DNA from: Rufibacter ruber | GTDB lineage: Bacteria > Bacteroidota > Bacteroidia > Cytophagales > Hymenobacteraceae | Direction: 5' to 3' | Length of the DNA stretch: 64,000 nucleotides | NCBI RefSeq assembly: GCF_001647275.1 | Contig: NZ_LRMM01000010.1 | Coordinates: 1 to 64,000, forward strand | Shown: piece after piece, positions 9,139 through 60,838 of the stretch | Layout of the letters: every line of letters starts with the position of its first letter | Position numbering within the stretch: the stretch's first letter is position 1 | Notes under the pieces: generated by a model | What the model was told of the DNA's origin: nothing | What the model saw: only the letters and a program-made list of their open reading frames with translations | The model's database searches: none | Program-made: the position numbers and the translations under genes

Positions 9139-9178
9139 CTGTTTTGGAGCTGTTTTCCTGAAAACAGGCCAAAAACAG
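9139..9178. repeat. HP40 palindrome copy
   Basis: Left arm CTGTTTTGGAGCTG, right arm CAGGCCAAAAACAG, centre TTTTCCTGAAAA. Three arm mismatches make it one of the more degenerate full-length copies. Confidence 0.8.
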
Positions 9179-9373
9179 AACTAGTGGTTTGATAGGTAAA
9201 TTTGAAATCAGGTAGTGGCAGCAGATAGTATTACTGGCGAAGAAGGGATCTATGCTCAATGACTCCTGAGCTCACGTGTGGTAACCGTATTAGGGCTAGA
9301 GAGACAGAACTTAAGAAGGTCTTATATCATCTCTGGCGCAAGCCTCTCTTTTACCTATGGGTGTGGTAACTTT

Positions 9374-9413
9374 CTGTTTTCGGGCTGTTTTTCAAAAAGT
9401 AGCCCAGAAACAG
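9374..9413. repeat. HP40 palindrome copy
   Basis: Left arm CTGTTTTCGGGCTG is the consensus. The right arm is TAGCCCAGAAACAG after an A-rich centre with AAAAAG, a right-arm variant shared with copies near 14976 and 28212. Confidence 0.85.
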
Positions 9414-9498
9414 AATTACAGGCAAAGCCTTCGCTGGCTATCTTTTGATAAAGCTGAACATGAGACTCTATATAGCATCAAAAAAACTAAAGGCAAAA

Positions 9499-9540
9499 AA
9501 AGAAGTCCCTCCAGTTTAAAACTGAAGGGACTTCTTTTTA
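9499..9540 (-). terminator. Terminator of the tRNA-Ser gene
   Basis: Read on the minus strand, a long stem (AGAAGTCCCT with AGGGACTTCT) encloses a second self-complementary part and ends in a T run. It begins 8 bp after the tRNA 3' end. It is also close to symmetric and could act on both strands. Confidence 0.75.
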
Positions 9541-9547
9541 AATGGAG

Positions 9548-9634
9548 CGGAGAGGGAGGGATTCGAACCCTCGATACCGTTACCAGTATACACACTTTCC
9601 AGGCGTGCTCGTTCGACCACTCTGACACCTCTCC
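9548..9634 (-). tRNA. tRNA-Ser (anticodon GGA)
   Basis: Read on the minus strand the 87-nt sequence has acceptor arms GGAGAGG and CCTCTCC, the anticodon loop CTGGAAA giving anticodon GGA, a long class II variable arm, and the T-arm GGTTCGAATCC. The discriminator base is G. The 3' CCA is not encoded (CTCC follows). It is a single gene with its own terminator. Confidence 0.95.
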
Positions 9635-9706
9635 GTGTTCACCTGTTTGGGAATGCGAAATAACGCAGAATAGATTTCTTTTACAAATAATAAAGCAAAA
9701 TTGAGG

Positions 9707-10780: not shown

Positions 10781-10784
10781 TGTC

Positions 10785-11546: not shown

Positions 11547-11565
11547 TTACTTCAATAACGAACGT

Positions 11566-11607
11566 GCTGTTTTTGGCCTGTTTTTCAGAAAACAGCTCAG
11601 AAACAGC
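11566..11607. repeat. HP40 palindrome copy in the tatD leader
   Basis: Left arm GCTGTTTTTGGCCTG and right arm CAGCTCAGAAACAGC around a TTTTTCAGAAAA centre. Its right end touches the tatD -7 box at 11607-11614, so transcripts should begin inside the palindrome. Confidence 0.85.
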
Positions 11608-11614
11608 AAAGATA
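11607..11614 (-). promoter_or_regulatory. -7 promoter box of tatD-ansA
   Basis: TATCTTTG on the minus strand is a perfect TAnnTTTG box 61 bp before the tatD ATG. No clear -33 TTTG was found. Confidence 0.5.
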
Positions 11615-11635
11615 ATGCATTCTACCGGCAGAAGG

Positions 11636-12727
11636 TTAATATTGTCTGCCCTTCCATCTGATCTTGGTAGGAAGGAAGAAGTAAACAATTAAAACCAGCG
11701 AGGTAAAGAGCAGGTACAGCTCCAGGAGAAACAGATCCCTCCCCTGAACCTTCCAATGCACCCGCTGGCAACAGAAAGATACAAAAACCGACTGCAGCAG
11801 AAGCTTTGCTGCAAAGACACCCCCCCAGACGGCCCAACCCGCATGCAGGAAGAAAGGGACCCACACGGGATAATACGAGGAGTGAAAAATGAAGAGCAGC
11901 AGCATGTACCAGGGCAGTTTTACAGAACCCCGCATCCAGCGCCGCCGCTGGTTAAAAAAGTCATTCAGGTTTCCAATCGGTTTAGAAAGGGCTAGCGCCG
12001 AGGGGCTGTAAACATGGGCGGTCTGGAAACCGGCCGCGGTTATTTCCTTGTGCAGTTGCACATCTTCTGTAATAGAGAAAGGGATTCCCTCAAAACCACC
12101 TACCTGTTCATAGGCCTCCCGGGTCACCAGCATGTTATTCCCCATGGTAGAAACAGAGACGCCCCTGTCTGCCACCACCTGCATCAGCCCCAGATTATAG
12201 AGCCAGTCAAGTGCCTGAAGCCGCTCAAAGAGGGAATGGCCCTTAGTGGTGGTGATTCCCGTCACTATGCCTGTGGTAGGGGTAAGCCGTTGCAAAAGCG
12301 TATGCACCCACTGCGGCGGCACCTCAATGTCTGCATCAGTAATGAAAAAGAACTCAGAGGTAGCTCTTTTTGCCAACTGGGCCAACACATTGGCCTTTCC
12401 TTTGGTACCGGCCATGTCATAGGAGATGGGAACACAGGTGACGTACGGTTTGCCCAGGCTGTACTGCTCTACCAGAGAACGGGTGTTGTCTTGGGAGCGG
12501 TCATCGCCTACCAGTACTTCCAGCTTATCTTTGGGGTAAGCCAGCCGGTCAATGGCGGCCAGGCAGGTTAAGATATGCTCCTGTTCATTTCTGGCAGCAA
12601 TCAGAATACTTACTGGGGGGAATTCTTGCGCGGCAGAGCTTTCTGGGGGTGCCCTGAAGACCCAGAGCAGCAGCAACAGCAGAAAAACAAAAAGGTACAG
12701 CGTTAGAAAGCCAATAGAAAACAGCAT
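11636..12727 (-). CDS. Membrane-anchored glycosyltransferase, family 2
   Basis: A 363-residue processive-type GT-A glycosyltransferase. One N-terminal membrane helix (about residues 3-24) is followed by the catalytic domain with PVSILIAARNE, VGDDRSQD, TDADIEVP (DxD-type metal site) and the QRRRWMRGS motif that binds the growing chain. Two or three C-terminal membrane helices follow. The donor sugar is unknown. Only 3 bp separate it from the NodB-type deacetylase, so the pair probably work on one polysaccharide or glycolipid. Confidence 0.88.
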   Translation of the reverse strand: MLFSIGFLTLYLFVFLLLLLLWVFRAPPESSAAQEFPPVSILIAARNEQEHILTCLAAIDRLAYPKDKLEVLVGDDRSQDNTRSLVEQYSLGKPYVTCVPISYDMAGTKGKANVLAQLAKRATSEFFFITDADIEVPPQWVHTLLQRLTPTTGIVTGITTTKGHSLFERLQALDWLYNLGLMQVVADRGVSVSTMGNNMLVTREAYEQVGGFEGIPFSITEDVQLHKEITAAGFQTAHVYSPSALALSKPIGNLNDFFNQRRRWMRGSVKLPWYMLLLFIFHSSYYPVWVPFFLHAGWAVWGGVFAAKLLLQSVFVSFCCQRVHWKVQGRDLFLLELYLLFTSLVLIVYFFLPTKIRWKGRQY

Positions 12728-12730
12728 CTG

Positions 12731-13360: not shown

Positions 13361-13415
13361 TTCTTAGTTGTTGTTGTCTCTCAATCTGCTACAGAAGCAC
13401 TACGCCGTTCGGCAT

Positions 13416-13455
13416 CCTGTTTTCGGGCTGTTTTTCTGAAAACAGCGAAAACAGG
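13416..13455. repeat. HP40 palindrome copy
   Basis: Left arm is the consensus CTGTTTTCGGGCTG. The right arm is CAGCGAAAACAG, two bases short (CC lost). The copy at 18360 has the mirror-image loss in its left arm. Confidence 0.85.
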
Positions 13456-13470
13456 AAAGCAAAGAATGAA

Positions 13471-14700
13471 TTATTTAAACCGACATGAAAGGAGCGTGAT
13501 GTCATCATGGAACGAGTTGCCGCTGTTGTAGGCATTAATCTCCTGCAGCAACTGGGTATGGATGTTGCGGGAACTTACAAAGCGGCAGCATTGCAGAAAC
13601 TTGATGGTATTCTCTACGCCAAACTCATCCTCCTCCTGGTTAAAAACCTCGGTCAGGCCGTCTGTGTAGCAAAAGACGAATGACTGCGGCGGCACAGGCA
13701 CTTTGGTCACCTTCAAAAATGGGAGAACGTCAAAAATGCCCAGCATGGTACACCCTTCCTCCAACAGCTGATACGTGTTGTTTTCATAAAGAAGAATAGA
13801 GGCGTTGTGCCCGGCATTCACATAACTCAGCTCACGGGTGGTTCGGTTGTAAATGCCCAGAAAGCAGGTGATGAATTTCTCTGCCACCGCATTGCGGTAG
13901 ATGAGGTCATTCAGCTCAGAGACAATGGTGTCCAGGTTGGTGGTTTGCCGTAAAATGGTACGCAGGCCGGCCTGGAAGTTAGACATCAACAACGAGGCAG
14001 GCACTCCCTTGCCAGAAACATCTGCCACACAGAAAAGAAACTGGTCTTTGTCAATGGGGATGTAGTCATAGTAATCTCCGCCTATAGAAGAATGCGGAAT
14101 ATAGGTGGCATGTACAGAAACCTGCTGGTTGTTGGGCAGCGACTTGGGGAACAGCATGTTCTGCACTTCGCGCGCAATCTCCACTTCTTTTCTCACTGCT
14201 TCCTGGGCCAACCGCTGCCTTTCCAGCCTTCGGTTCTCCATGGCCACCAGAATGATGTTGCTCAGCGTCTGTACAAAGCTCAGGGCCCCCAGGGTGGTAT
14301 AATAGGCATGCACGTTCCCAATCATCACAAAGGCCAGTATCCTGCTATTGTGTATAATGGGTATGACGGTTTCAAAGTCATGCCACCGGCGGTCAATGTT
14401 GAGTTTTGACAGAGACGTGATTTCCCGCAGCTCTGCTATCTCCTGCGGAAGCGCAAGTTCCCTGAAGTTGTAGTCTGTGCCAAAACAGACCTTGCACTCC
14501 CATTGCTCGTCTAGCAGAAACAGCGAGAGGCGCCGTATGTTCAACTGGGCCAGCAGGGTGAAATGGTAAATCTTATAAAGAGCTTCTTCAGGCAGATTGT
14601 TATTGATAGCCTTTGTGATCTCCAGCAGAGCCGCCAATTCCAGCTTCTTCAGGTTCAACTCTTGCTCTACTGTGGGGAACTTCAATTCTGACATTGACAA
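13471..14700 (-). CDS. PP2C-type (SpoIIE/RsbU family) protein serine phosphatase with N-terminal sensor domain
   Basis: A 409-residue cytoplasmic signalling phosphatase. Residues about 20-170 form a GAF-like sensor domain, followed by a short coiled coil (RQRLAQEAVRKEVEIAREVQ) that leads into the catalytic domain. Metal-binding motifs IGGDYYDYI, VADVSGKGVPASLLM and CYTDGLTE are intact. Such proteins usually reverse the phosphorylation of an anti-sigma antagonist; no partner kinase or antagonist is encoded nearby. An alternative start lies two codons further in. Confidence 0.9.
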   Translation of the reverse strand: MSMSELKFPTVEQELNLKKLELAALLEITKAINNNLPEEALYKIYHFTLLAQLNIRRLSLFLLDEQWECKVCFGTDYNFRELALPQEIAELREITSLSKLNIDRRWHDFETVIPIIHNSRILAFVMIGNVHAYYTTLGALSFVQTLSNIILVAMENRRLERQRLAQEAVRKEVEIAREVQNMLFPKSLPNNQQVSVHATYIPHSSIGGDYYDYIPIDKDQFLFCVADVSGKGVPASLLMSNFQAGLRTILRQTTNLDTIVSELNDLIYRNAVAEKFITCFLGIYNRTTRELSYVNAGHNASILLYENNTYQLLEEGCTMLGIFDVLPFLKVTKVPVPPQSFVFCYTDGLTEVFNQEEDEFGVENTIKFLQCCRFVSSRNIHTQLLQEINAYNSGNSFHDDITLLSCRFK

Positions 14701-15148
14701 CTGCCGTTTTCTTGAATTTATCTTATCTGGGTGCTATAGCAAATCAAAAGGCAATTTAACTAAAAGACCCGGGATTGCTAAGAGTACTCACCTTCATCTG
14801 AAACACCTGAACTAAAAAAAAGTTATCTGATCAACCGCCCCTGCAGGAAAGGCCTGCCCTAAGTGTTTATTTTTGTTTAAATTTTTAGGCTGAACGGGCA
14901 AACAGGAAGGTTCTTAAAGTTATCTCATAAATGCCTGATCAGGGAGAAAGGTTCTGCGCAGGCAGGAACTTCTCTCTGTTTTTGGCTTGTTTTCCTGAAA
15001 GTAGGCTAAAAACAGAAAAACATGTTTCAAACCTTCTGCTTATGAAAGGCTACGTTTTACCAGGTCAGAGCCAGGGAGCAGCCAGCGGCAAGCAAAAAGA
15101 GAACTGATTCCTGCCGGGCATTGCCATCGCCAAGGCAATTAACAGCTG
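14701..15148. other. Intergenic region with one HP40 copy
   Basis: No coding frame was supported in these 448 bp. The HP40 at 14976 is the only named structure. The region separates the phosphatase from the small three-gene membrane/glycosyltransferase unit, all on the minus strand. Confidence 0.6.
14976..15015. repeat. HP40 palindrome copy
   Basis: Left arm CTGTTTTTGGCTTG, right arm TAGGCTAAAAACAG after GAAAG. The GTAG variant at the start of the right arm recurs in copies near 9374 and 28212. Confidence 0.8.
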
Positions 15149-18110: not shown

Positions 18111-18428
18111 CTGCACAGGGTAGCGCGCCAGGGAGTATTCTTTACTGGGGGCGCAGGTTTAATTTAGTTTTACGAGGCAAAATGCGTCTGGGTGGGGTTC
18201 TGCCTATGCGGTTGCAGAGCCACGTATTCCGGCGGCGAAGGCAACCTAAGGGGGAGAGAAAGGTTCAACTTCTGGCCTTTTACAGAGGGCATCATTTGCA
18301 TAAACCTCCTCTAACAACCAACCTTCTTATGGCCGCTGTCCCCTCTAAAACAAGTTTTCCTGTTTTCGCTGTTTTTGAGAAAACAGCCCGAAAACAGGAA
18401 TAACCACCAATATCAGCAGGCGGGAGTT
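18111..18428. other. Intergenic region between ruvC and the HIT gene
   Basis: These 318 bp lie between convergent genes. They hold one HP40 copy. No gene or clear terminator was found. Confidence 0.6.
18360..18397. repeat. HP40 palindrome copy
   Basis: The left arm CTGTTTTCGCTG lacks two bases (GG) of the consensus, and the right arm CAGCCCGAAAACAG is perfect. Flanks CC/GG extend the palindrome by two bases. Confidence 0.85.
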
Positions 18429-19462: not shown

Positions 19463-19502
19463 CTGTTTTTAAGCTGTTTTCTTGAAAACACGTCAAAAAC
19501 AG
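19463..19502. repeat. HP40 palindrome copy upstream of ppx
   Basis: Left arm CTGTTTTTAAGCTG, right arm CACGTCAAAAACAG. It lies 33 bp before the -7 box of the ppx/gppA gene. Confidence 0.75.
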
Positions 19503-20478: not shown

Positions 20479-20485
20479 TCAAACC

Positions 20486-20524
20486 CGTTTTTGGGCTGTT
20501 TTTGGAAAAACAGCCCAAAAACAG
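20486..20524. repeat. HP40 palindrome copy between ppx and ppk
   Basis: Arms CGTTTTTGGGCTG and CAGCCCAAAAACAG. The T-A pair at arm position eight, where the consensus has C-G, is one of the compensated arm changes. It runs directly into the terminator at 20520. Confidence 0.88.
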
Positions 20525-20566
20525 CAATCCCTCCTGCGTAGACCGCAGGAGGGATTGCTGTTTTTA
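20520..20566. terminator. Bidirectional terminator between ppx and ppk1
   Basis: A near-perfect 18-bp stem (ACAGCAATCCCTCCTGCG with its complement) around a short loop, with a T run on the plus side and an A run on the other. It serves the convergent ppx and ppk1 genes. Confidence 0.88.
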
Positions 20567-23027: not shown

Positions 23028-23067
23028 CTGTTTTAGCCCTGTTTTAGGAAAAACAGCCCGAAAACGG
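23028..23067. repeat. HP40 palindrome copy
   Basis: Left arm CTGTTTTAGCCCTG, right arm CAGCCCGAAAACGG, centre TTTTAGGAAAAA. The centre has four T and five A, the reverse of most copies on this strand. Confidence 0.82.
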
Positions 23068-25207: not shown

Positions 25208-25247
25208 CTGTTTCCGGGCTACTTTTTTGATTTCAGGGCAAAACCAG
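25208..25247. repeat. HP40 palindrome copy (degenerate)
   Basis: Left arm CTGTTTCCGGGCTA, right arm CAGGGCAAAACCAG, with a widened centre. This is the most degenerate of the full-length copies, between gyrB and the ROK kinase gene. Confidence 0.6.
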
Positions 25248-26652: not shown

Positions 26653-27156
26653 AGTCAGAAGCTGTTCAGAGTTTTTGAAACCGCGAGGCAATGGCTGCCG
26701 GGTAAGGTTTTTCACCAGCCAGTGGTTTCTGTTTTCGGGCTGTTTTTGTAAAAACAGCCCGAAAACAGAAACTTAAATCTTTGCCAAATGCCTTTCTGAG
26801 AAAAACCTAAACAGCTTCTCAATTTCATACCCATTAAACTGAGGATAGAACTGACTAAGAGCCTGTTTACATTTTTGTTTTGCAGCGGAAAATGGGGAGC
26901 GAAAGGTACTGGCGAAGCCATTTTTGAGCAGCGTAGCAGCGCTACGGTGAGAGGAAAAGGCAAAAACTGGTTCTTCTGAAACCACTTTGTAGTACAAAAG
27001 ATAAATAAAAACACGCCCTAAAGCCTTTTGAAGCAGTCTTTCTTTTCCACTCCACCTCCATCTCAATTATTGATTTTAACTATATCATCAGCACCTGGTT
27101 TACGCATCACCCAGGAAAACAAAAGTTGAAATAAGGTCTTAGATGCCCCTAGGTTG
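26653..27156. other. Intergenic region with HP40 inside possible inverted terminal repeats
   Basis: No gene was supported. A perfect HP40 lies at 26729. On either side are AGAAGCTGTTCAGAG (26657-26671) and CTAAACAGCTTCTC (26808-26821), which are imperfect inverted copies of each other. A related CTAAGAGCCTGTTTA follows at 26854-26868. A block at 26850-26885 read on the minus strand resembles 20691-20724. Open frames here carry repeat-derived sequence and look non-coding. Confidence 0.5.
26729..26768. repeat. HP40 palindrome copy (perfect consensus arms)
   Basis: Arms CTGTTTTCGGGCTG and CAGCCCGAAAACAG pair perfectly around TTTTTGTAAAAA. Flanking TT/AA extend the palindrome. Confidence 0.92.
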
Positions 27157-28211: not shown

Positions 28212-28250
28212 CTGTTTCTGGCCTGTTTTTGTGAAAGTAGGCCCAAAACG
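28212..28250. repeat. HP40 palindrome copy
   Basis: Left arm CTGTTTCTGGCCTG, right arm TAGGCCCAAAACG, centre with GTGAAAG. It is 50 bp after the ABC ATPase stop codon. Confidence 0.8.
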
Positions 28251-28414
28251 GGGCGCACGCTTATGCCAGCCCAAGTCTTTTAAAGAAGAAAACGGCAAAC
28301 GTTAAACAGCTTCTCAGTTTCCTAAAAGAAGTAACTTTTATAGAAAGACAGTCAGAGAAGATTTTCCATTGGTCCACTTCTAGTCTGGGGTAAACCATTC
28401 CGGTTTCCCCTGAT

Positions 28415-28472
28415 GGGCGTATTCTGTTTTTGGGCTGTTTTTCAAAAAACAGCCCCAAAACAGAATACGCCC
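28415..28472. repeat. HP40 palindrome copy with extended arms
   Basis: Core at 28424-28463 with arms CTGTTTTTGGGCTG and CAGCCCCAAAACAG. The flanks GGGCGTATT and AATACGCCC are also perfectly complementary, giving a 58-bp palindrome. These flanks are unique to this copy. Confidence 0.92.
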
Positions 28473-32523: not shown

Positions 32524-32915
32524 ACCAAAAAAGGATTTTTTCCTACCGCCACCGCCACCATTCTCCCCTTTTTTTGATCACCGGCAGCGAGGGCGGCTTT
32601 TCAGTTTTCACCGCAACTTCAGCTCTCCCGCCAGCTTTTAGTACCTGTTCCTGTTTTAGGGCTGTTTTTCAGAAAACAGCCCTAAAACAGGAGGTCTTCT
32701 TTAACAGGAACTTGAAGTATTCTGGTACAATAGACACCACAGCCCACAATGGGCATGCAGCACTGAGCCGCCCCCTTTCCTAAAGATGAAACGGAACACC
32801 AAACTATCTGGCCTGAAAGGGACCCTGCCGTCACTTCTAACCCTATAGACAAATGGATCTAGCCTTTCTAATTGAAAGGAACTTGCCAGTTGAAAGGAGC
32901 TTGCCAGTTTGCCTA
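32524..32915. other. Intergenic region between dnaN and a lipoprotein gene
   Basis: About 390 bp hold one HP40 with perfect arms and a near-duplicate GAAAGGAACTTGCCAGTT / GAAAGGAGCTTGCCAGTT at 32875-32909. No gene was supported. Confidence 0.55.
32651..32690. repeat. HP40 palindrome copy (perfect, T-A arm variant)
   Basis: Arms CTGTTTTAGGGCTG and CAGCCCTAAAACAG pair perfectly. Compared with the consensus, the C-G pair is replaced by A-T on both arms, a clear compensating change. TC/GA flanks extend it. Confidence 0.93.
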
Positions 32916-35395: not shown

Positions 35396-35875
35396 TGGCT
35401 CTCATTTACCAAACCGCCTCCTGGCTGCTCCGGTCTTTGTGTTTTTATCCTATTCCTGAAAAAGCAGATATGAAACAGAAAGAAAAAGGATGGGTAGATT
35501 AATTAAAAAGAGAGCCTGTTTAGCATTTCCAAAACTGAGCTTTAGATAGCTTCTGTACTGGCGCCAGCACCCGCTTGTGTCGCTGTTTTGGCTCTTCTTT
35601 TGCGAAAACAGGCCAGAAACAGAAGCAAACAACTTCAAAAGACTACCAAAAAGCAGACACTTGCGCCTATGATCAGAAAACACTAAACAGGCTCATAAAA
35701 TAGATTTAACACCTGGTTCTTTAAGATGAAAGATTAGGTGAAAGTTACTATCATTAGGTAAGACATTAATTTATTTATCAAACACAAGCAAAAGATATTC
35801 AGAACGTCCGGAATGATTTTTTTTATATATCTTTACTTAGCATAACCATTTTGGGCTGACTTTTAACATTACGCT
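35396..35875. other. Intergenic region with HP40 between inverted repeats
   Basis: No gene was supported. GAGCCTGTTTAG (35512-35523) and CTAAACAGGCTC (35683-35694) are perfect 12-bp inverted repeats 183 bp apart from end to end. The HP40 at 35583 lies between them. A partial -7 box TATCTTTA (35828-35835) precedes the next gene. Confidence 0.5.
35583..35622. repeat. HP40 palindrome copy
   Basis: Left arm CTGTTTTGGCTCTT, right arm CAGGCCAGAAACAG, centre CTTTTGCGAAAA. It is degenerate, but it is exactly 40 bp. Confidence 0.7.
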
Positions 35876-39097: not shown

Positions 39098-39137
39098 CTG
39101 TTTTCGGCCTCCTTTCTGAAAACGAGGCCAAAAACGG
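39098..39137. repeat. HP40 palindrome copy
   Basis: Left arm CTGTTTTCGGCCTC, right arm GAGGCCAAAAACGG, centre CTTTCTGAAAAC. The inner C-G end (CTC/GAG instead of CTG/CAG) has changed on both arms, which keeps the pairing. Confidence 0.85.
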
Positions 39138-39369: not shown

Positions 39370-39594
39370 CGCTATTCGGGATTTGCAATCTTCCGCTATT
39401 CGGGATTTGCAATCCCGAATTTGATTACCTGCGGATTTGCAATCCGCGGCGCGTGCTGTTCAAAAGTGCCGAGACGGGGATTACAAATCCCCCAGTTATT
39501 TGCTTCCGGATTACAAATCCGGAAGAGCGTTTAGCAGAATATGGCGCGGAAGTTACTTCCGTGACTTACGGTTAGGAAGTGACTTCCGCGCCAT
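39370..39594. repeat. Cluster of five palindromes with variable arms
   Basis: Palindromes with core GGATTTGCAATCC or its TTACAAA variant: 39398-39420 (ATTCGGGATT arm), 39431-39447 (GCGGATT arm), 39476-39492 (GGGGATT arm), 39503-39525 (CTTCCGGATT arm). A longer hairpin at 39541-39594 has outer arms ATGGCGCGGAAGT / ACTTCCGCGCCAT. A 21-bp direct repeat occurs at 39370-39390 and 39394-39414. The arms differ between copies, yet each pairs perfectly with itself. No gene lies here. Confidence 0.85.
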
Positions 39595-39620
39595 AGTTGA
39601 AAAACCTAGTGAAACGGTTT

Positions 39621-39660
39621 CTGTTTTTGCCCTCATTTCTGGAAAAGAGGCCGAAAACGG
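39621..39660. repeat. HP40 palindrome copy next to menD
   Basis: Left arm CTGTTTTTGCCCTC, right arm GAGGCCGAAAACGG. The CTC/GAG inner end is shared with the copy at 39098. TTT/AAA flanks extend it. It lies 9 bp from the menD stop codon. Confidence 0.8.
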
Positions 39661-41382: not shown

Positions 41383-42605
41383 GATTCAGAGGCTTGGAAA
41401 AGGCGCAGCACGGTCTGCATTTTGAGTTCGGTCTCCTGCCATTCTTTGGCGGGGTTGGAGTCAGCGGTCATGCCGGCGCCGGCGTAGGCGGTCACGGTCT
41501 CTTTCCTTACTTCCGCACAGCGGAGGTTCACAAACAGGTTGGTCTCCTGCCCCAGCTGTACCGGTCCCAGAAACCCGCTGTAGTACCGGCGGTCGTGCTG
41601 CTCCAGTTCATTTATCATTTTCAGGGCCGCGGCTTTGGGCATTCCGCCCACGGCGGAAGTGGGGTGCAACAGTTCCAGCATCTGGGAACCCAATTGCGGA
41701 AATCCAACTTCGTCCATGGCCGCACTATAATCGGTTTTGAGGTGCAGCAGATTTCCGGCGGCTATGGTTCTGGGCCCCGCCTCCACGTATTCGCGCAGCC
41801 GGAGGTGTTTGAAACAGCTGATGATGTAGCGCTGCACCAAGGCCTGTTCCTCAATTTCCTTCTGCCGCCAGATGGCATCGGCGGGCGTGAGGCCGTCGGT
41901 GATGGGTTGCGTTCCGGCCAAGGCCACCGTTCTGAACACGCGGTGGCGGTCAATCTGCACTAAAACCTCTGGCGTAGCGCCCAGCCACGTGCCAATGCCC
42001 GGAATGGCCACCAACGAGACGAAAGCCGTGGGGTACAGTTGGGTGAGGTGGTCAAAGGTCTGCAACAGGTCAAACCCCTCAAACAGCGGCAGCGTTTTGG
42101 TTCTGGACAGCACCACCTTCTCCAGACAGCCCGCCTGCATGGCACTCACCGCCGCGGCCACCGTCTGCTCAAACGCATCTCGCCTAATAGCGGAAACGGT
42201 GCCCTGCGGGTGCTGCGCCCAGTTCTGTAACGGCTGGCTTTCCTGTTTTTGGCCTGTTTTCGCCAAAACAGCCCGAAAACGCTCTGGCAAATCTATAGTG
42301 TTGACTTCTACGTTTTCATCGGCTTTGCCGCAGTAATAGATATCTGCGGGCAGGAAATTAATAGGAGATGTTGGGGAAACCTGGAACGGGTGGAAAGCAA
42401 ATCCTTTTCCCGGGCCTTCCAGCGGCGGCAAAGAATTCTCCGTTTCCTTGGCCACCAGTGCCTGTACGTGTTGCGTATTGGGCAGCCGCCAGAGAGCAGT
42501 GGGGAGTTCAGCTTGAGCGGCAGCTTTAAACAATGAAAAAGAAATCTCCTGCGGCGAAAGGCCGGCAGTGGATTGGTGGATTGAGGAAGAAATATTGTCG
42601 GGCAT
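41379..42605 (-). CDS. menF: Isochorismate synthase
   Basis: Converts chorismate to isochorismate, the first menaquinone-specific step. The 408-residue protein has an N-terminal variable part and a chorismate-binding domain from about residue 135 (GCLEKVVLSRTK, TWLGATPEVLV, LAGTQPI, LLHPTSAVGGMPK, YAGAGMTADSNPAKEW). Residues 109-122 (RFRAVLAKTGQKQE) are encoded by an HP40 palindrome at 42243-42281, in the linker just before the catalytic domain. The reading frame stays open through it. The gene leads the menF-menD pair. Confidence 0.93.
   Translation of the reverse strand: MPDNISSSIHQSTAGLSPQEISFSLFKAAAQAELPTALWRLPNTQHVQALVAKETENSLPPLEGPGKGFAFHPFQVSPTSPINFLPADIYYCGKADENVEVNTIDLPERFRAVLAKTGQKQESQPLQNWAQHPQGTVSAIRRDAFEQTVAAAVSAMQAGCLEKVVLSRTKTLPLFEGFDLLQTFDHLTQLYPTAFVSLVAIPGIGTWLGATPEVLVQIDRHRVFRTVALAGTQPITDGLTPADAIWRQKEIEEQALVQRYIISCFKHLRLREYVEAGPRTIAAGNLLHLKTDYSAAMDEVGFPQLGSQMLELLHPTSAVGGMPKAAALKMINELEQHDRRYYSGFLGPVQLGQETNLFVNLRCAEVRKETVTAYAGAGMTADSNPAKEWQETELKMQTVLRLFQASES
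42243..42281. repeat. HP40 palindrome copy inside menF
   Basis: Left arm CTGTTTTTGGCCTG, right arm CAGCCCGAAAACG, centre TTTTCGCCAAAA. It is the only convincing copy inside a gene. In the menF frame it encodes RFRAVLAKTGQKQE. Confidence 0.88.
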
Positions 42606-44411: not shown

Positions 44412-44450
44412 CCGTTTTCGGCCTGTTTTTCTGAAAATAGCTCAAAAACG
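44412..44450. repeat. HP40 palindrome copy
   Basis: Left arm CCGTTTTCGGCCTG, right arm TAGCTCAAAAACG, centre TTTTTCTGAAAA. It is 18 bp after the histidine phosphatase gene and 25 bp before the next promoter. Confidence 0.82.
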
Positions 44451-44474
44451 ACTTTACATTCTCTTACCACCATA

Positions 44475-46293: not shown

Positions 46294-46335
46294 GCAAGAG
46301 CCGAGGGAGAAATCCTTCGGCTCTTGCTGTTTTAG
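46294..46335 (+). terminator. Terminator of the E2 gene
   Basis: Stem GCAAGAGCCGAGGG with CCTTCGGCTCTTGC (46294-46307 and 46314-46327, one G-T pair), then TGTTTT. The T tract is the start of the HP40 left arm that follows, so the two structures share sequence. Confidence 0.8.
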
Positions 46336-46365
46336 GCCTGTTTTCTGAAAAACAGGCTAAAAACG
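46327..46365. repeat. HP40 palindrome copy fused to a terminator
   Basis: Left arm CTGTTTTAGGCCTG, right arm CAGGCTAAAAACG, centre TTTTCTGAAAAA (reverse orientation of the usual centre). It begins inside the terminator stem. Confidence 0.85.
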
Positions 46366-46489
46366 CAAATAGCGGTGTCCCTTCTCCCGCTGGGAGAAGG
46401 TTAGGATGAGGGTGGTTCCAATTGCCAGAAGCAGGATTTTCGGGATTAGGTGAATTTTCAGGATTGGGTTAGAAGTTGGCTTAGACGCT

Positions 46490-46755
46490 CGCAGGTCCTC
46501 CGGACGCTACGAGGTCTTTTTGAAATGGCTGATTGTGCATTGTTGATGGTTAAGAATAAATGCGCTGGCGCGAGCTTGCAGCTCGTGCCTACCCGTGCTG
46601 CGAGTCTCCAGACTCGCCGGGAACCAAGAGTTGGGAATATGTGATAACAGGAGTCTGGAGACTCCAACCACCCATCGCACGAGTCTGGAGACTCGCGCCA
46701 GATAAGACGGAGCATAGACGCAATCTTTTCTTTGGCGCGGAAGCTACTTCCGTGC
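46490..46755. repeat. Second cluster of short palindromes with variable arms
   Basis: GTCCTCCGGAC (46494-46504); GGCGCGAGC / GCTCGTGCC around TTGCA (46567-46589); GCGAGTCTCCAGACTCGC (46600-46617); GGAGTCTGGAGACTCC (46650-46665); CGAGTCTGGAGACTCG (46680-46695); GGCGCGGAAG / CTTCCGTGCC (46733-46755). The AGTCTGGAGACT core is kept while the outer pairs change together. The last unit shares GCGGAAG / CTTCCG with the cluster near 39.55 kb. No gene lies here. Confidence 0.85.
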
Positions 46756-46844: not shown

Positions 46845-46884
46845 CTGTTTTCGGGCTGTTTTCCTAAAAACAAGCCAGAAACAG
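46845..46884. repeat. HP40 palindrome copy
   Basis: Left arm CTGTTTTCGGGCTG (consensus), right arm AAGCCAGAAACAG. The flanks TGTTC/GAACA extend the palindrome to 46840-46889. It is 9 bp from the tsaD stop codon. Confidence 0.87.
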
Positions 46885-50900: not shown

Positions 50901-51621
50901 GATTTCTGGGAAACTCTCCGGGCCAATCCTGAAAGGTTCTGTGATGGTGACAGACGGTTCTTTTGTATTCAACTACCTCAAAACCAAGTACACGTTCTCA
51001 GACCGCGTCTACTTCAGTGAGAACGACATCTCCTTCCGGAATGTACGGCTGCGGGACATTTACAACAACACGGCCATTCTGAATGGCGGGGTCTTCCATG
51101 ACGGCTTCAGCAACATGGTGCTGGATCTGAAAGCCATCTTCACCCGCTTCATGGTACTGAACACCACCCGCGAAGACAACCCCATGTACTTTGGTACCGC
51201 CTTTGCCACGGGAGAGGTCACCGTGTTGGGGCCCACTTCAAACATGCGGGTAGACATCAAGGCTAAAAGTGAGAAAGACACCCAAATCTCTATTCCGTTA
51301 GACAACGCCACCTCACTGGAGCAGCAGAACTTTATCAGTTTCATCAATACCAACCCGGCCCTCAGAGACACAGCCGCCGCTACCGGGGTTGTTCCAGAGA
51401 AGAAAGGCCTTGATCTCTCAGGCATCAGGCTCAACTTTAACCTAGACATTGATGAAAACGCCTACCTGGAACTCATCTTTGATGAAAAAACAGGAGACAT
51501 CATCGCGGCCGCGGAAGGGGGAATATCAGGATGGACATTGATACCCGCGGTGAGTTCTCCATGTACGGCACCTATGAGATCATACAGGGCCGGTACAACT
51601 TCACCCTGCTGGGGCTGGTGA
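47905..51621 (+). CDS. tamB: TamB (DUF490) translocation/assembly protein, 5' part of a frameshifted gene
   Basis: TamB spans the periplasm and helps outer membrane assembly and lipid transport. This frame gives 1238 residues: a cytoplasmic start, one membrane anchor (about residues 28-52) and a long run of beta-strand repeats (AsmA-like start SVVLNKVRVLD, then repeats such as ITLTGAVSRNP). The true homology ends near residue 1200 at EKTGDII. The last 40 residues are out of frame and unlike the family. The rest continues in another frame at 51531. The start is a TTG at 47905 and is uncertain. Confidence 0.85.
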   Translation: METPNQEETQEKKKNYPQVIAKALLKIILGTLIFVMVLVGVLFMALRIPSVQTRVAQKAAEIISETIDHQVTIGGVDIRFFKSVVLNKVRVLDRQKKTLFYVGELEADIGHFNPFSPDSLYISSLTLTQPEANLIQYKGSDTLNMSTFIRSLGKLITTDTAQAKNPFKFKIDELVLKNGHFTYHDYNEPFSDYGVDYDHLDLERISGRFSELDIKGDTLYGQITNLTTQDKRSGAFLKELDTRMVYAPTFWEWGKLNLRVNNSHLANFVRFDYRRFGNFVHFNDSIEVTANFDSTYVTSDDISMFAEVLKDWDEKVLLSGNVKGKTNSFRAQNVDIRYGKNTHIKGDISADGLPDFRNTFADLHLEGSTLNARDLKRYIPQPAYDIAARAGTIQLEGDFTGFYNDFVANGAFKTPLGNLQSDINLKFDKQNANHSSYSGYVKTGGFDVGGLIGDRSIIKRVALDGRVKGSGFSFETAHLQLDATINAIDLYNYNYRNIVVDADLSRETFNGDLSIKDPNLALTAHGKVNLQNNNQIFNLSVQLKRANLKTLGLTDQQIYLETDAKVDFTGVKLDEISGTATFENTFLSYQDQKVAIDSLEVVSHFHDGIRELHVGSELLALRAGGNFQYSTLFADLKTLYEEYRLNFRNDPVALANYYRRKPATPPAPYEVELDVLFRRVNPLLHAFAPEVSLSDFTHMEGSFRNGPTAILSLVGTVDTVYYGKNQFYKNRVDFTSSKLWNSADVLANAVVTSERQRLKGAGDTENLYVEGVWNDRLISFSSNIAQTGTTNRANISGNVAFHQDDIQIVFNRSNINVLDRVWTISPNNTIVFEDGDINFNNIIFSNGPQSITLTGAVSRNPQQLLTVAIQDFQLENLNPLLPDKINGRLNGELLLRDLYQNIIMSSRMTVDSFMVDNLLIGNVTGTTAWDNTRELLNVDVGISRDNQKVLSLTGTYNPDGGAQELDLMAVMDDAQIKIVEPLLKTIMTDMSGTMAGRVRISGKLSGPILKGSVMVTDGSFVFNYLKTKYTFSDRVYFSENDISFRNVRLRDIYNNTAILNGGVFHDGFSNMVLDLKAIFTRFMVLNTTREDNPMYFGTAFATGEVTVLGPTSNMRVDIKAKSEKDTQISIPLDNATSLEQQNFISFINTNPALRDTAAATGVVPEKKGLDLSGIRLNFNLDIDENAYLELIFDEKTGDIIAAAEGGISGWTLIPAVSSPCTAPMRSYRAGTTSPCWGW

Positions 51622-52481
51622 ACAAAGAATTCAACATAAGGCCGGGGGGAACCGTGACCTGGAACGGAGACCCCCTGGAAGGTCTGCTCAACATCACGGC
51701 CACCTACACCCAGCGGGTGTCGTTAGAACCAATTCTGGCCTTGGGAGCTGCCCAAACACAGTCTGGGATTACCTGGGGCCGGTATCCGGTAACGGCGGTC
51801 ATGGATCTGGACGGCCCCCTCACCACGCCGCAGATCAGGCTGAACCTGGAGTTCAATGACACTCCCAGTCTGCTGGAAGACCAGATCACCAACTACCTGA
51901 ACACCATCAGGAATGACGAACAGGAACTAAACCGGCAGGTTTTCTCGCTCCTGGCCTTTAAACGCCTGTCGCCGCAGAACGAATTCCAGGTGGCCGTGGG
52001 CGATTTGGGCAGCAGCGTGGGGGAACTCTTCTCCAACCAGTTCAGCTACTGGCTTTCCCAGATAGACCCCAACCTGGAGGTTGACATTGGGGTGAGCGGC
52101 AGCGGTGATCAGGTGCTGGATGACATTCAATTGCGCCTCAGTTATACCTTTTTGGAGGGCCGTTTGCGCATTACCCGTGAAGGCAGCATCAACAACAACC
52201 AGGTGGGCAACAGCGGCAGAACCACCGCCATTGGCGACCTCTCTGGTGAGTTCTACCTGAGCAAGAGCGGCCAGCTGCGGTTACGGGTCACCCACCAGAC
52301 CACCCCGCGGGATTTTGAGGCCAACACCACCGCCACCAGACAAACCATTAGTGTGCTGCACCAGGCCAACTTTGACAACCTGGGGGAACTCTGGCGCAGC
52401 ATCTTCCCCAAGAAGATCAAGGAACCTGCCCGCCAGATTATTGACGAAGACGAGCGGGTACCAATTATCAACCCAAATTAA
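51531..52481 (+). CDS. tamB: TamB C-terminal part (DUF490 domain) after a frameshift
   Basis: The frame starting near 51505 continues the TamB domain, with DIDTRGEFSMYGTYEIIQG, then VNKEFNIRPGGTVTWNGDPLEG, and ends in the expected barrel-like C-terminus. Restoring one base at about 51504 (ATCATC-GCGG, giving IIRGRGRGNIRMD) joins it exactly to the upstream part. As drawn, translation from the ATG at 51531 would give a 316-residue fragment without a membrane anchor. It is either a sequencing error or a real mutation. Combined length would be about 1520 residues, normal for the family. Confidence 0.88.
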   Translation: MDIDTRGEFSMYGTYEIIQGRYNFTLLGLVNKEFNIRPGGTVTWNGDPLEGLLNITATYTQRVSLEPILALGAAQTQSGITWGRYPVTAVMDLDGPLTTPQIRLNLEFNDTPSLLEDQITNYLNTIRNDEQELNRQVFSLLAFKRLSPQNEFQVAVGDLGSSVGELFSNQFSYWLSQIDPNLEVDIGVSGSGDQVLDDIQLRLSYTFLEGRLRITREGSINNNQVGNSGRTTAIGDLSGEFYLSKSGQLRLRVTHQTTPRDFEANTTATRQTISVLHQANFDNLGELWRSIFPKKIKEPARQIIDEDERVPIINPN

Positions 52482-52483
52482 TT

Positions 52484-52535
52484 GCATTCCTGTTTTCGGC
52501 CTGTTTTTCAGAAAACAGCCCGAAAACAGGAATGC
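52484..52535. repeat. HP40 palindrome copy with extended arms, after tamB
   Basis: Core 52490-52529 with arms CTGTTTTCGGCCTG and CAGCCCGAAAACAG. The flanks GCATTC/GAATGC make the palindrome 52 bp. It starts 3 bp after the tamB stop codon. Confidence 0.92.
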
Positions 52536-52899
52536 TGGTTTCTAAGAGGAATTGAAGAACTGCGAACAACCATGTTGTTCAGTTGAGGCAAGCGCCAGAC
52601 GGTGCAGGTAAAAGCAGCTTTGGCGTTCGGGGCGGTTAAGGGAAATGGGCCATGCCAGGTTATATAATAGCCAGGGGAAGGCTCGGTAAGGCAGAGTAGC
52701 ATTGGCCTTCCTGTCAATATGATTTCGGCCCCATCTCCTGTTCCCAGCCTGCTGTAATACCAGTCCTTTTGCTTCGTTTATAAGGAACCGGTGTCTACAT
52801 CTGGCTTTGGCAGAAGGACTTCCCGGTTCTGTTTCTGACCTATTTTTCTGAAAACAGGCTAAAAACGCTCAGGGATCCGGTCTTGTTCTAAATAATTGC
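52536..52899. other. Intergenic region between tamB and ftsX
   Basis: Apart from the HP40 copy at 52829, no structure or gene was identified in these roughly 360 bp. Confidence 0.5.
52829..52867. repeat. HP40 palindrome copy upstream of ftsX
   Basis: Left arm CTGTTTCTGACCTA, right arm CAGGCTAAAAACG, centre TTTTTCTGAAAA. It ends 33 bp before the ftsX -7 box. Confidence 0.78.
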
Positions 52900-53821: not shown

Positions 53822-53836
53822 GATTAACAACACCCC

Positions 53837-57017: not shown

Positions 57018-57023
57018 GTATTC

Positions 57024-57062
57024 CTGTTTTCAGGCTGTTTTTCTGAAAACAGGTCTAAAACG
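57024..57062. repeat. HP40 palindrome copy
   Basis: Left arm CTGTTTTCAGGCTG, right arm CAGGTCTAAAACG, centre TTTTTCTGAAAA. It is 6 bp after the membrane protein gene. Confidence 0.82.
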
Positions 57063-57133
57063 CACATTCTGAGAAAACTGGGCCCTAGCTGCCCTTTCAA
57101 ATAAGATAACTTTCCATCTCTACTTAGAGTCAC

Positions 57134-57829: not shown

Positions 57830-57850
57830 CTAGTACTCATTTTGAACAGT

Positions 57851-58510: not shown

Positions 58511-58867
58511 GAGTTGTTACCACTTCGGCGCAAGCCGTACCTCTAATTTTGTGTTTTTGACCTGTTTTTCAGAAAACAGGCCAAAAACAGCGTATAGATA
58601 CTTGTTCTTAAAACAAAAGTGCCAGCTTACCTTTGTGCTTAGAGCATGTTAAAATTGTCTTCTGCGCTTTAAAACGGCACCAGAATAACCTGGCTTTGCC
58701 AGAACCTTTTGCTTCTGTTTTAATGCCGGTGCAATAACTCTTTAAACAAGCTCTAACTTGCGGCGGAAAGCAGCAACCATCCTGGGAGGGGGCTGGGTAT
58801 AAAGATTTCCTCCTTTTTCACCTCTTCTGTGTTGGCTATGGCACAGAAAAGAAAAGCAACCAGCAAT
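58511..58867. other. Intergenic region with HP40 and an inverted repeat
   Basis: HP40 at 58551. Further on, TTAGAGCATGTTAAAA (58639-58654) and TTTAAACAAGCTCTAA (58741-58756) are imperfect inverted repeats with about 85 bp between them. No gene was supported. Confidence 0.5.
58551..58590. repeat. HP40 palindrome copy
   Basis: Left arm GTGTTTTTGACCTG, right arm CAGGCCAAAAACAG, centre TTTTTCAGAAAA. It is 40 bp after scoB. Confidence 0.87.
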
Positions 58868-60421
58868 ATGAGTGAGACAACTGAACACAAATTAATACTA
58901 AGACAACTTACCCAGGCAGATTATAAAGAGGTAAAGCAGATCATGGAAATGGTCTACACCAACCTGGGCGGCTCCTGGACCCAAAAAGAATTCAACTCCC
59001 TGCTCAAACGCTTCCCAGAGGGGCAGCTGTGTATTGAGGATAAAGGACGGGTGGTGGCAGCCGCCTTGAGCTTGATCGTTGATTATTCTGAATACGGCGA
59101 CAAGCACACCTATGAGCAGATTGTGGGCGGTGGCAAGTTTGACACCCATGACGCAGACGGCGACACCCTGTACGGCGTAGATGTGTTTGTGCACCCAGAC
59201 TACCGTAACCTGCGCCTGGGACGGCGTTTGTATGACGCCCGTAAGGAGCTCTGCGAAAACCTGAACCTGCGCGGCATCATCCTGGGCGGCCGCATACCCG
59301 GCTACAAGGAACATTCTGACAAGATGACGCCGGGCAAGTACATTGAGCAGGTGCGCAACAAGGAGATCTATGACCCTATCTTAACGTTCCAGCTGAGCAA
59401 CGGCTTTCACGTACGGAAGATTATCAAAGGCTACATGCCCCAGGATAAGGAGTCTAAAGCCTATGCCTCCTTGCTGGAATGGATCAACGTGTACTATGAA
59501 GAAAAGGAGACGCTGGTAGGCGGCACCAAGAAAGTGGTACGCATTGGGGTAATCCAGTGGCAGATGCGCCAAATGAACTCCCTGGAGGATTTTGAGCAGC
59601 AGATTGAGTTCTTCGTGGACACGGTAAGCTCTTACAAGGCAGACATGGTGCTGTTCCCTGAGTTCTTTAATGCCCCGCTCATGGCACTCACAGATGAGAC
59701 CACCCCGTCTGCGGCTATCAGAAAGTTAGCCGATTATACAGACGGCATACGGGAGCGCCTCATTCACCTGGCCCTCTCGTACAACATCAACATCATTGCG
59801 GGGAGTATGCCGGAGTACATAGACAACAAGCTCCACAATGTAAGCTACCTCTGCCGCCGCGATGGCACCTGGGACAAACAGTACAAGCTGCACGTTACAC
59901 CAGACGAGGCCCATTACTGGGGAATGCGCGGCGGAAATAAACTGAATGTATTTGACACCGACTTCGGGAAGATAGGGATTCTGATCTGCTATGACGTAGA
60001 GTTCCCGGAGCTGGCCCGTATGCTGTCTGACCAGGAGATGAAAATCCTGTTTGTTCCGTACCAGACAGATACCAAGAATGCGTACTTGCGGGTACGGCAC
60101 TGCGCCCAGGCCCGTGCCATTGAAAACGAATGCTATGTGGCTATCACCGGCAGCGTGGGCAACCTGCCCCGGGTAGAGAACATGGACATCCAATACTCGC
60201 AATCAGCGGTGTTTTCGCCCTCAGACGTTGCTTTCCCGCATGATGCCATCATTGCAGAGGCCACACCCAACACCGAGATGACCCTGATCGCCGACCTGGA
60301 CCTGGAGCTTCTGAAGGACCTGAACACCACCGGCAGCGTGCGTAACCTGCGTGACCGCCGGAAGGATCTCTACAACCTGAGCTGGCTGCACCAGAAAGAA
60401 GATGATTTAACTGAGATTTAG
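58868..60421 (+). CDS. GNAT-nitrilase fusion (acyltransferase plus carbon-nitrogen hydrolase)
   Basis: A 517-residue fusion. Residues about 10-200 form a GNAT N-acetyltransferase domain, with acetyl-CoA loop DVFVHPDYRNLRLGRRLYDA. Residues about 230-510 form a nitrilase-superfamily amidohydrolase with the catalytic triad in LFPEFFNAPLM (Glu), YKLHVTPDE (Lys) and ILICYDVEFPEL (Cys). This two-domain arrangement is a known family in bacteria, but its substrate is not known. Starts at 58829 and 58838 are possible; 58868 fits the GNAT start best. A strong hairpin follows. Confidence 0.9.
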   Translation: MSETTEHKLILRQLTQADYKEVKQIMEMVYTNLGGSWTQKEFNSLLKRFPEGQLCIEDKGRVVAAALSLIVDYSEYGDKHTYEQIVGGGKFDTHDADGDTLYGVDVFVHPDYRNLRLGRRLYDARKELCENLNLRGIILGGRIPGYKEHSDKMTPGKYIEQVRNKEIYDPILTFQLSNGFHVRKIIKGYMPQDKESKAYASLLEWINVYYEEKETLVGGTKKVVRIGVIQWQMRQMNSLEDFEQQIEFFVDTVSSYKADMVLFPEFFNAPLMALTDETTPSAAIRKLADYTDGIRERLIHLALSYNINIIAGSMPEYIDNKLHNVSYLCRRDGTWDKQYKLHVTPDEAHYWGMRGGNKLNVFDTDFGKIGILICYDVEFPELARMLSDQEMKILFVPYQTDTKNAYLRVRHCAQARAIENECYVAITGSVGNLPRVENMDIQYSQSAVFSPSDVAFPHDAIIAEATPNTEMTLIADLDLELLKDLNTTGSVRNLRDRRKDLYNLSWLHQKEDDLTEI

Positions 60422-60429
60422 AGAAAGTA

Positions 60430-60480
60430 GCTCAGAAACAGGAACGGCTGGCCACATGGCCAGCGTTCCTGTTTCTGAGC
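60430..60480. terminator. Long hairpin after the GNAT-nitrilase gene (HP40-related outer arms)
   Basis: GCTCAGAAACAGGAACG pairs with CGTTCCTGTTTCTGAGC, and the inner GCTGGCCA/TGGCCAGC closes the stem, except for one extra base. The outer arm CTCAGAAACAGG equals a common HP40 right arm, preceded by GAGAAAGTAG as in HP40 variants. It thus looks like an HP40 right arm joined to its own inverted copy. It may work as a terminator, although the T tract is poor. Confidence 0.75.
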
Positions 60481-60616
60481 GGTTCATTGCAAGAGGAGAC
60501 GTTGGGGAGCTTGTGGAGAGGGGTTTGTATTGCAGGTAAAGCTTAAGAACAAAGAACTAGGTGCTGGTGCATTAACTTCAATCTTTGGCCAAGGACTGTG
60601 ATTGTCTCTAAAGCTT

Positions 60617-60655
60617 CTGTTTTGGGGCTGTTTTTTTAAAAATAGACCAAAAACG
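60617..60655. repeat. HP40 palindrome copy
   Basis: Left arm CTGTTTTGGGGCTG, right arm TAGACCAAAAACG, centre TTTTTTTAAAAA. It is degenerate in the right arm. Confidence 0.72.
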
Positions 60656-60798
60656 GCAACACCAGCTCAACCTTTCCCACCTAAGTAAAACGGAAAAAGT
60701 AATACCAGGGAAGTTCTTTAGATTTTAAACCGGCAGACGTATTAGAAGGTACATCTCCTTTAACGAAAGCTTTTTGACCTGCTTAACAAAAGGCGCTG

Positions 60799-60838
60799 CT
60801 GTTTTCGGGCTATTTTTCTGAAAACAAGCCAGAAACAG
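60799..60838. repeat. HP40 palindrome copy
   Basis: Left arm CTGTTTTCGGGCTA, right arm CAAGCCAGAAACAG, centre TTTTTCTGAAAA. The flanks CG/CG extend the pairing. Confidence 0.85.

Follow-up and report, generated by a model that had tools for sequence, protein, structure and literature searches.

Short palindromes that recur between the genes of a bacterium raise the question of what keeps them there, and this question is posed in a dense form by HP40, a 40-bp palindrome dispersed over a 64,000-nucleotide stretch of the Rufibacter ruber genome (contig NZ_LRMM01000010.1, positions 1 to 64,000; hereafter the window). The answer developed here, for which belief and doubt are about evenly balanced, is that HP40 is a settled family resembling repetitive extragenic palindromes (REPs) at the 3' ends of genes, with a conserved skeleton that a host protein would recognise in double-stranded form and with copies that would be homogenised by copying between sites. 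We infer the duplex binding, the route of conversion and the benefit of HP40 from sequence comparison.

A single 14-nt arm with up to two mismatches was found 29 times in the window, as compared with a mean of 0.64 (maximum 3) over 100 shuffles, and 34 matches came from a scan for both arms in which 18 or more of the 28 arm letters had to agree; 27 of these were accepted as HP40 copies. The seven excluded matches, of 18–19 letters, lie at 2828, 6253 (within an open reading frame, ORF), 19711, 34391, 39852, 46063 and 60933, and 52829, with 18 arm letters, was retained as copy-like by eye. Twenty-five of the 27 copies are exactly 40 bp long and two are 38 bp. An earlier note on this DNA had likewise counted 27 full copies with a near-constant core length; its count stands, as does its half copy at 101–121, which is essentially a right arm (weak match 51–121). 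The member at 25208 is a copy but hardly a full one, being badly degraded (about 20 bits), and it was omitted from the covariance model (R1), built from the other 26. The note had also called a hairpin at 60430–60480 related; this perfect hairpin (arms of 17 bp, loop of 17 nt) was not matched by R1 at E values up to 1. At the Rfam gathering score the window yielded one tRNA only and no family matching HP40. The copies are as follows, with no strand assigned to any of them.

9139..9178: HP40 copy, two-arm scan and R1 (60.9 bits)
9374..9413: HP40 copy, two-arm scan and R1
11567..11606: HP40 copy, 29 nt past the stop of 11636–12727 (minus strand); same position in G012 and G013
13417..13454: HP40 copy, 38-bp variant, 16 nt past the stop of ORF 13471–14700 (minus strand); gap filled in G012 and G013
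14976..15015: HP40 copy, gap occupied in 10/15 species
18360..18397: HP40 copy, 38-bp variant, convergent gap after ruvC, occupied in 16/16 species
19463..19502: HP40 copy, divergent gap, occupied in 13/16 species
20485..20524: HP40 copy, convergent gap between a Ppx/GppA-family gene and ppk, 15/15 species; overlaps an ordinary terminator-like hairpin at 20517–20565
23028..23067: HP40 copy, 17 nt past the gyrB stop; the ppk/gyrB gap scores in 2/16 species only
25208..25247: degraded HP40 copy, divergent gap, 14/16 species
26729..26768: HP40 copy, perfect palindrome, 4-bp complementary flanks
28212..28251: HP40 copy, two-arm scan and R1
28424..28463: HP40 copy, copy-specific complementary flanks of 9 bp
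32651..32690: HP40 copy, perfect palindrome, two-arm scan
35583..35622: HP40 copy, two-arm scan and R1
39098..39137: HP40 copy, two-arm scan, R1 and orthologous-gap comparison
39621..39660: HP40 copy, 9 nt past a stop
42243..42282: HP40 copy within a menF-like coding sequence, codons 108–121
44412..44451: HP40 copy upstream of pdhC, 16/16 species
46327..46366: HP40 copy, convergent gap after pdhC
46845..46884: HP40 copy, 9 nt past a stop, 5-bp complementary flanks
52490..52529: HP40 copy, 8 nt past ORF 51531–52481, 6-bp complementary flanks
52829..52868: HP40 copy, two-arm scan and R1
57024..57063: HP40 copy, 6 nt past a stop
58551..58590: HP40 copy, 40 nt past a stop
60617..60656: HP40 copy, two-arm scan and R1
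60799..60838: HP40 copy, two-arm scan and R1; the sole window copy with CGTC at its foot

Positions 1–9100, which carry oligopeptide-type ABC transporter genes at a GC content of about 0.41–0.48, nearly lack HP40, unlike the remaining window. When a position weight matrix (PWM) made from the window copies was applied to 461 kb of the genome under study (designated G000, the other G numbers being relatives), window included, it found 234 copies, 219 of them with the exact 40-bp spacing, and none in three Markov shuffles. A stricter counting threshold gave 222 copies, or about one per 2 kb, so that the high density claimed earlier extends beyond the window; provided that the 461-kb sample is representative, about 2,650 HP40 are expected in the 5.50-Mb genome. 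These counts and those in the genomes of the genus support the earlier reading of a dispersed, REP-like family and show it to be genome-wide.

The search of relatives with a covariance model, as the earlier note had proposed, showed that HP40 marks the genus Rufibacter (Hymenobacteraceae) and is nearly restricted to it. R1 gave at least 77–112 matches in each of the 16 genus genomes, and two matches each in 2 of 21 other genomes of the family; the remaining 19 gave none, nor did 22 genomes from elsewhere in the order. The counts in relatives are lower bounds, cover both strands and come from a model trained on window copies. A scan of 204 family genomes gave at least 27–32 matches in all 16 genus genomes and 1–7 matches in 13 of the 188 others. 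Among named loci, the Rufibacter and Sabulibacter ruber loci (about 20 kb each) held 4–10 copies in nine of nine cases, and none was found in the 29 scanned of 49 other named loci (17 Pontibacter, 8 Hymenobacter and 4 others). The rare family copies outside the genus include pairs 70–86 bp apart in the family genus g3 (L199, L200, L203), and five loci with copies in other genera, read for their genes, had nothing in common beyond one orthologous pair (G192, G209). As a separate observation, positions 3001–4600 of L207 in G012 hold an integron-like array of three long repeats with HP40-type pairs about 75 bp apart inside it; by eye, the long repeats look like integron attC sites. Carriage by phages or plasmids was considered and rejected, with no viral contig matched by one exact pattern and no plasmid by one 40-nt blastn query.

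Within the 461 kb, HP40 sits mostly right behind genes. Gene positions were taken from a home-made gene caller (349 genes), by which 208 of 213 placed copies are intergenic and five lie within called genes. Eighty of the 208 intergenic copies fall within 30 nt past a stop, as compared with a mean of 46.9 under uniform placement (maximum 65 in 1,000 draws), and only 8 fall within 30 nt before a start, as compared with a mean of 28.0 (minimum 16). Among gaps of at least 100 bp, a copy is present in 36 of the 38 that are convergent, in 99 of the 141 that are co-directional and in 13 of the 38 that are divergent, confirming that copies occur in all three arrangements. A caution is that the gene caller overlooked the ABC-transporter genes in the first 9 kb. 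In the window, the copy at 42243–42282 is the only one of the 27 inside a called gene, in line with the earlier statement that all convincing copies but one are intergenic. It encodes a peptide with a recognisable counterpart across the genus (loosely of the type F-W-A-x-x-Q-K-T-x-Q-K-Q). In-frame insertion into menF was set aside, since orthologs keep a related peptide and PDB matches begin after that region, and no outgroup menF was present among the fetched loci; the palindrome may here have been turned into coding sequence.

The positions themselves are largely shared across the genus. Orthologous gaps were compared in 20-kb stretches anchored on gyrB and pdhC, counting only gaps between matched neighbours, with 40–80 kb of sequence examined for most species, 300 kb for G012 and 240 kb for G013. 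Ten gaps were comparable in at least five species, six of them well occupied (16/16 at ruvC, 16/16 before pdhC, 15/15, 14/16, 13/16 and 10/15) and four less so (5/12, 2/16 at ppk/gyrB, 2/15 and 0/12, the last a gap of about 32 bp). The copy before pdhC lies 18–23 nt past the upstream gene and 71–82 nt before pdhC in all 16 species. Between G000 and G012, 12 gaps are occupied in both, 2 in G000 only, 1 in G012 only and 14 in neither; between G000 and G013 the numbers are 15, 2 (G000 only), 1 (G013 only) and 16. This comparison of orthologous intergenic regions, suggested in the earlier note, thus gives agreement in 26 of 29 and 31 of 34 gaps. Because the relatives share these sites at only about 75–81% identity to G000 in aligned DNA, the nearest at about 81%, the sites are old. 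No clean empty site was seen at ppk/gyrB, the only gap aligned for an empty-site test. These largely fixed positions, taken with the species-specific rewriting described below, point to a job at the DNA level at gene ends and not to an element that is currently jumping.

What is conserved within the copies is a two-fold skeleton of the form TT..TT..AA..AA (TT at columns 5–6, TT(T) at 16–18, AA(A) at 23–25 and AA at 35–36), which spans about 30 bp from end to end. At six orthologous sites compared in 10–16 species, 40 of 48 skeleton cells (columns 5–6, 16–17, 24–25 and 35–36) are fully identical and the remainder reach 73–87%, and at five of the six sites HP40 is conserved at 0.56–0.67, as compared with 0.23–0.40 in the flanks. 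The exception is the pdhC site, where the flanks reach 0.54–0.85 and the far right flank exceeds HP40 itself (0.69), which counts against the preferred reading. This comparison used PWM-chosen hits of exactly 40 bp, so that copies of 38–39 bp were left out (for example in G014 at ruvC) and the 38-bp ruvC copy of G000 was read out of register. Because the hits had been chosen by PWM, detection was repeated with columns 5, 6, 16 and 17 masked, in the five species of lowest homogeneity (G002, G003, G008, G014 and G015; the labels "homogeneous" and "decayed" were assigned after inspection of the data). In the 58 copies so obtained, T is present at these columns in fractions of 0.93, 0.94, 0.84 and 0.97, with 0.64–0.76 for T4, T7, T13 and T15 and 0.89 for T18. 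The TT/AA steps are 11, 8 and 11 bp apart and would therefore all lie on roughly one face of the helix.

The main rival, which we hold possible though well short of probable, is that HP40 acts as an RNA hairpin at the 3' ends of mRNAs, where it would terminate transcription, block 3' exonucleases or slow translation in the manner of Escherichia coli REPs, with the pairing itself under selection. The strong bias towards stops and the avoidance of starts described above are what it would expect, and the consensus folds well as single-stranded DNA (-20.9 kcal/mol, z -10.6), with weak folds for two degraded copies. Pairing across the family tells otherwise: in 213 copies of G000, 16 of the 20 core column pairs are no more complementary than column shuffles at z >2. 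Several observations nevertheless weigh against a purely duplex role and speak for pairing in some copies. Near-perfect copies number 51 of 213, as compared with about 20 in shuffles; positions 8 and 33 covary (z 6.7); copy-specific complementary flanks of at least 4 bp accompany 15 of the 51 near-perfect copies and 2 of the 162 others; and near-perfect copies are scarce in divergent gaps (2/70), with extended ones lacking there (0/17). Insertion of HP40 into pre-existing hairpins is a possible source of such flanks that was considered and set aside; alignment gave no empty site. At the convergent ruvC site, 15–18 of 18 pairs are kept in 12 of 15 species, and the arms and 6-bp complementary flanks (18360–18397 and its orthologs) have changed together in most species, each with flanks of its own; judged by these alignments, the site is a possible natural record of quasipalindrome correction. 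At other orthologous sites many copies retain only 6–12 of 18 pairs while TT/AA persist. The excess of near-perfect copies, together with the poor covariation elsewhere, therefore indicates that pairing is kept or restored, and by the look of the sequences matters, at a subset of sites, and that the TT/AA skeleton is general.

Termination as such fits poorly. Bidirectional intrinsic terminators are, like HP40, inverted repeats behind genes, but HP40 has a T-rich 5' arm, and a T-tract seldom follows its stem. Of the 27 window copies, one has five T in the 15 nt downstream and none has five A in the 15 nt upstream; as a set they do not show the GC stem with following T-tract that characterises intrinsic terminators. 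This and the occupied divergent gaps support the earlier view that the copies are not simply terminators. On the other side, a terminator-like match overlaps HP40 at 20 gene ends, and some copies form the tip of a longer hairpin that is followed by a T-tract (L047, L051). A separate terminator-like hairpin was about equally common with HP40 (44/145) and without it (16/72), as judged by a weak detector (antisense control 49/145 and 12/72), and ordinary A-stem-T hairpins were found beside HP40 in the window. In E. coli, REPs that lie no more than 15 nt from a stop cause ribosomes to stall (PMC12306157), and by analogy they may offer a fair model for the HP40 copies nearest to stops. The RNA hairpin does better on the perfect subset and fails on the poorly paired, skeleton-bearing majority.

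The third strand of the preferred reading, copying between fixed sites, comes from differences among species outside the skeleton. HP40 identity within species exceeds that between species by 0.0546 overall, as compared with a permuted maximum of 0.0048. The excess is clear in G000, G004, G005, G006, G012 and G013 (identity 0.70–0.755) and slight in G007, G009 and G010. Among 29 copies of G012, position 14 is C in 87% and position 15 is A in 75%; the corresponding letters in G000 are G (81%) and T (82%), so that CTCATTT in G012 replaces the CTGTTTT of G000, shared positions included: at ten shared positions the G012 copies match the G012 consensus at 32.3 of 38 letters, the G000 consensus at 27.0 and their own G000 orthologs at 24.7. 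Orthologous copies are barely closer to each other than non-orthologous ones (mean excess 0.019, positive in 64 of 117 species pairs). Near-identity was controlled by column shuffles made pair-wise, and copy pairs identical at 38 or more of 40 positions number 123 in G000 (shuffled mean 2.1, maximum 9), 275 in G012 (mean 4.5, maximum 20) and, as a mild excess, 20 in G013 (mean 1.8, maximum 10); pairs identical at 34 or more exceed the shuffles in G004 (9, maximum 3) and G005 (24, maximum 14). We take the excess of near-identical copies to reflect, in some species, copying from one fixed site to another, a view that these alignments suggest.

Not all of this favours such copying. There is no within-species excess in 7 of the 16 species (G001, G002, G003, G008, G011, G014 and G015; 0.53–0.58). 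Closer agreement of a copy with a consensus than with one other copy is to be expected anyway, the G013 dialect is weak (31.9 to its own consensus and 28.6 to that of G000, 12 pairs), and the G000 copies fit the G000 and G013 consensuses equally (29.9 and 30.2, 12 pairs). Some species pairs retain a memory of the site, for example G003 and G014 (0.775 vs 0.584). No excess of near-identical copies over column shuffles was found in G003, G006 and G008, although G006 has a tight consensus (within-species identity 0.751), and near-identity could also arise in part where intact copies coexist with decayed ones.

On the preferred reading, HP40 would have spread by copying before the radiation of Rufibacter and would now be largely fixed, mostly behind genes. 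A putative host protein would read the skeleton as double-stranded DNA from roughly one helix face; no HP40-binding protein was identified, which counts against this step. Its binding may be useful at the ends of transcription units as a boundary, as a roadblock to read-through or in the control of supercoiling, roles that have been discussed for E. coli REPs and bacterial interspersed mosaic elements (BIMEs). Sequence outside the skeleton would be homogenised by transfer between existing sites, for which the simplest route would be ectopic gene conversion that starts from a break or stall at the palindrome. Such conversion would also make arms perfect again and lengthen them into the flanking DNA. 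Gene conversion was reportedly proposed for REPs by Higgins et al. in 1988, as the title of their paper has it. A bolder version is tentative and on balance doubtful: HP40 copies would be genus-specific chromosomal boundary elements, with a putative protein on a 30-bp duplex skeleton behind nearly every convergent pair insulating transcription units or organising the nucleoid, and with conversion, in co-evolution with the protein, holding all sites of a genome to a single, shifting dialect.

It is unlikely, by comparison, that HP40 is a REP or a miniature inverted-repeat transposable element (MITE) moved by a resident REP-associated tyrosine transposase (RAYT) or another transposase, such that shared sites reflect age and target preference and new copies overwrite old ones. 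The resemblance to REPs is real. Passages of PMC3733652 describe these as extragenic palindromes of 20–40 bp in high copy number, and those of PMC12306157 place them partly close to stop codons; HP40 shares with REPs, BIMEs and REPINs the short palindrome, high copy number, extragenic location and partial placement behind stops. It differs in its 40-bp length with four half motifs of the CTGTTTT type, in its species dialects, in its genus-wide fixed positions (observed on the HP40 side only) and in not being the hairpin of most local RAYTs. The foot tags of REPs are also lacking, with GTAG in 0 of 27 window copies and CGTC in 1 of 27; CGTC REPs without a linked transposase do exist, as stated in passages of PMC3733652. 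No description of HP40 or of such Rufibacter repeats was found in the open-licence literature, in keeping with the earlier note's failure to recognise the sequence, and the main text of PMC12306157 mentions neither Rufibacter nor Hymenobacter.

RAYTs are certainly present. G000 has three above the NCBIfam cut-off, which carry the HuH, WQ and Y-x-H-[QT]-N-P motifs of the Bacteroidetes subclass 2.6 (one with SHVH, not NHxH); searched against the PDB, a RAYT yielded no more than one match, at E 0.85. The 45 RAYT loci inspected in the genus represent 46 of 53 matches, with seven left out. HP40 lies within 60 bp upstream in 7 of the 45, six of them in one RAYT clade in which it stands 26–39 bp upstream in six species, the gap being orthologous for G000 and G013. 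In a second clade HP40 lies 67–69 bp downstream in 4 of 6 loci, of which three are probably one locus because they share a second copy at 604–612 bp. A seven-row clade spans G004, G005, G007, G010, G012 and G013 and is absent from the loci retrieved for the five species of lowest homogeneity (with two G015 matches and one G014 match left out). Such associations, the near-identical copies in several species and the lack of near-identical excess in G006, the species without Y1_Tnp, speak for a transposase; a RAYT flanked by HP40 is what the earlier note had proposed to look for. At most loci, however, the hairpins are others: of 30 RAYT loci, 27 have some inverted repeat in the 170 bp upstream or the 260 bp downstream, mostly short and unlike HP40, such as GGCGCGGAAGTTACTTCCGTGCC, inverted on both sides of one G000 RAYT. 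By eye, the window hairpins at 39540–39595, 46595–46671 and probably 39374–39420 are like these RAYT-flanking ones (GGCGCGGAAGTTACTTCC, CGAGTCTCCAGACTC and CGGGATTTGCAATCCCG types), the first two being inverted doublets that look REPIN-like. Subclass 2.6 (RAYT group 5) is described in passages of PMC6006769 as lacking GTAG and as having "atypical secondary structures" also in copies elsewhere in the genome; the local RAYTs share its motifs, and their short flanking hairpins could fit this description, while the repeats around them are mostly not HP40.

The distribution of RAYTs matches that of HP40 only in part. Among the 45 loci, no single RAYT clade spans all homogeneous species; G003 and G008 have RAYTs and no near-identical HP40 pairs; G006, an HP40-rich single contig, gave no Y1_Tnp match, whereas the other 14 of 15 genus relatives have one; and elsewhere in the family RAYTs occur in 15 of 21 genomes, yet 19 of the 21 lack HP40 matches. 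An orphan TnpA, P0005 (L005, 1489–1929), with a Y---Q--HH signature resembling subclass 1.2, was rejected as a partner since it was found in only 3 of 16 genus genomes. Considering the other hairpins around RAYTs, G006 and the absence of a common clade, a RAYT was set aside as the driver of HP40, and with it the mobilisation by RAYT that the earlier note had proposed; the many positions fixed genus-wide also speak against a transposase, the search for which covered the Y1_Tnp type. An ancestral or indirect role of RAYTs is possible.

Very improbable is a tag for self-recognition, for example a DNA uptake sequence (DUS), spread by biased transformation to give dialects at fixed sites. Species dialects, orthologous positions included, are its support, and the DUS of Neisseriaceae is described as a genome-wide signal with such dialects (PMC3630211). 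HP40 differs as a 40-bp intergenic unit whose arms seldom occur alone: single arms number 18 as compared with 430 palindrome arms (controls 12–14), 6 of the 18 being coding, and at stricter thresholds 5–9 as compared with 0–5 in controls, 0–2 being coding. To our knowledge, a four-part palindrome of 40 bp far exceeds the length of any uptake signal. Least credible of all are neutral relics of one ancient burst, which would suit the old, shared positions and the low PWM scores in five species and are contradicted by the column-specific conservation in decayed species under masked detection and by dialects that differ between species.

The usual view of REP-like repeats is of mobile or selfish DNA linked to a RAYT. 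What surprises in the present case is that fixed positions carry dialects and that convergent gaps are almost all occupied: HP40 is a palindrome family that is largely fixed genus-wide and conserved in its core, yet rewritten in some species. Two old questions thereby become directly testable: do bacterial palindrome families evolve in place through gene conversion, and do they serve a conserved function where genes end? A binding factor, should one exist, ought to be easy to find, given the clear skeleton and the roughly 2,650 sites expected per genome.

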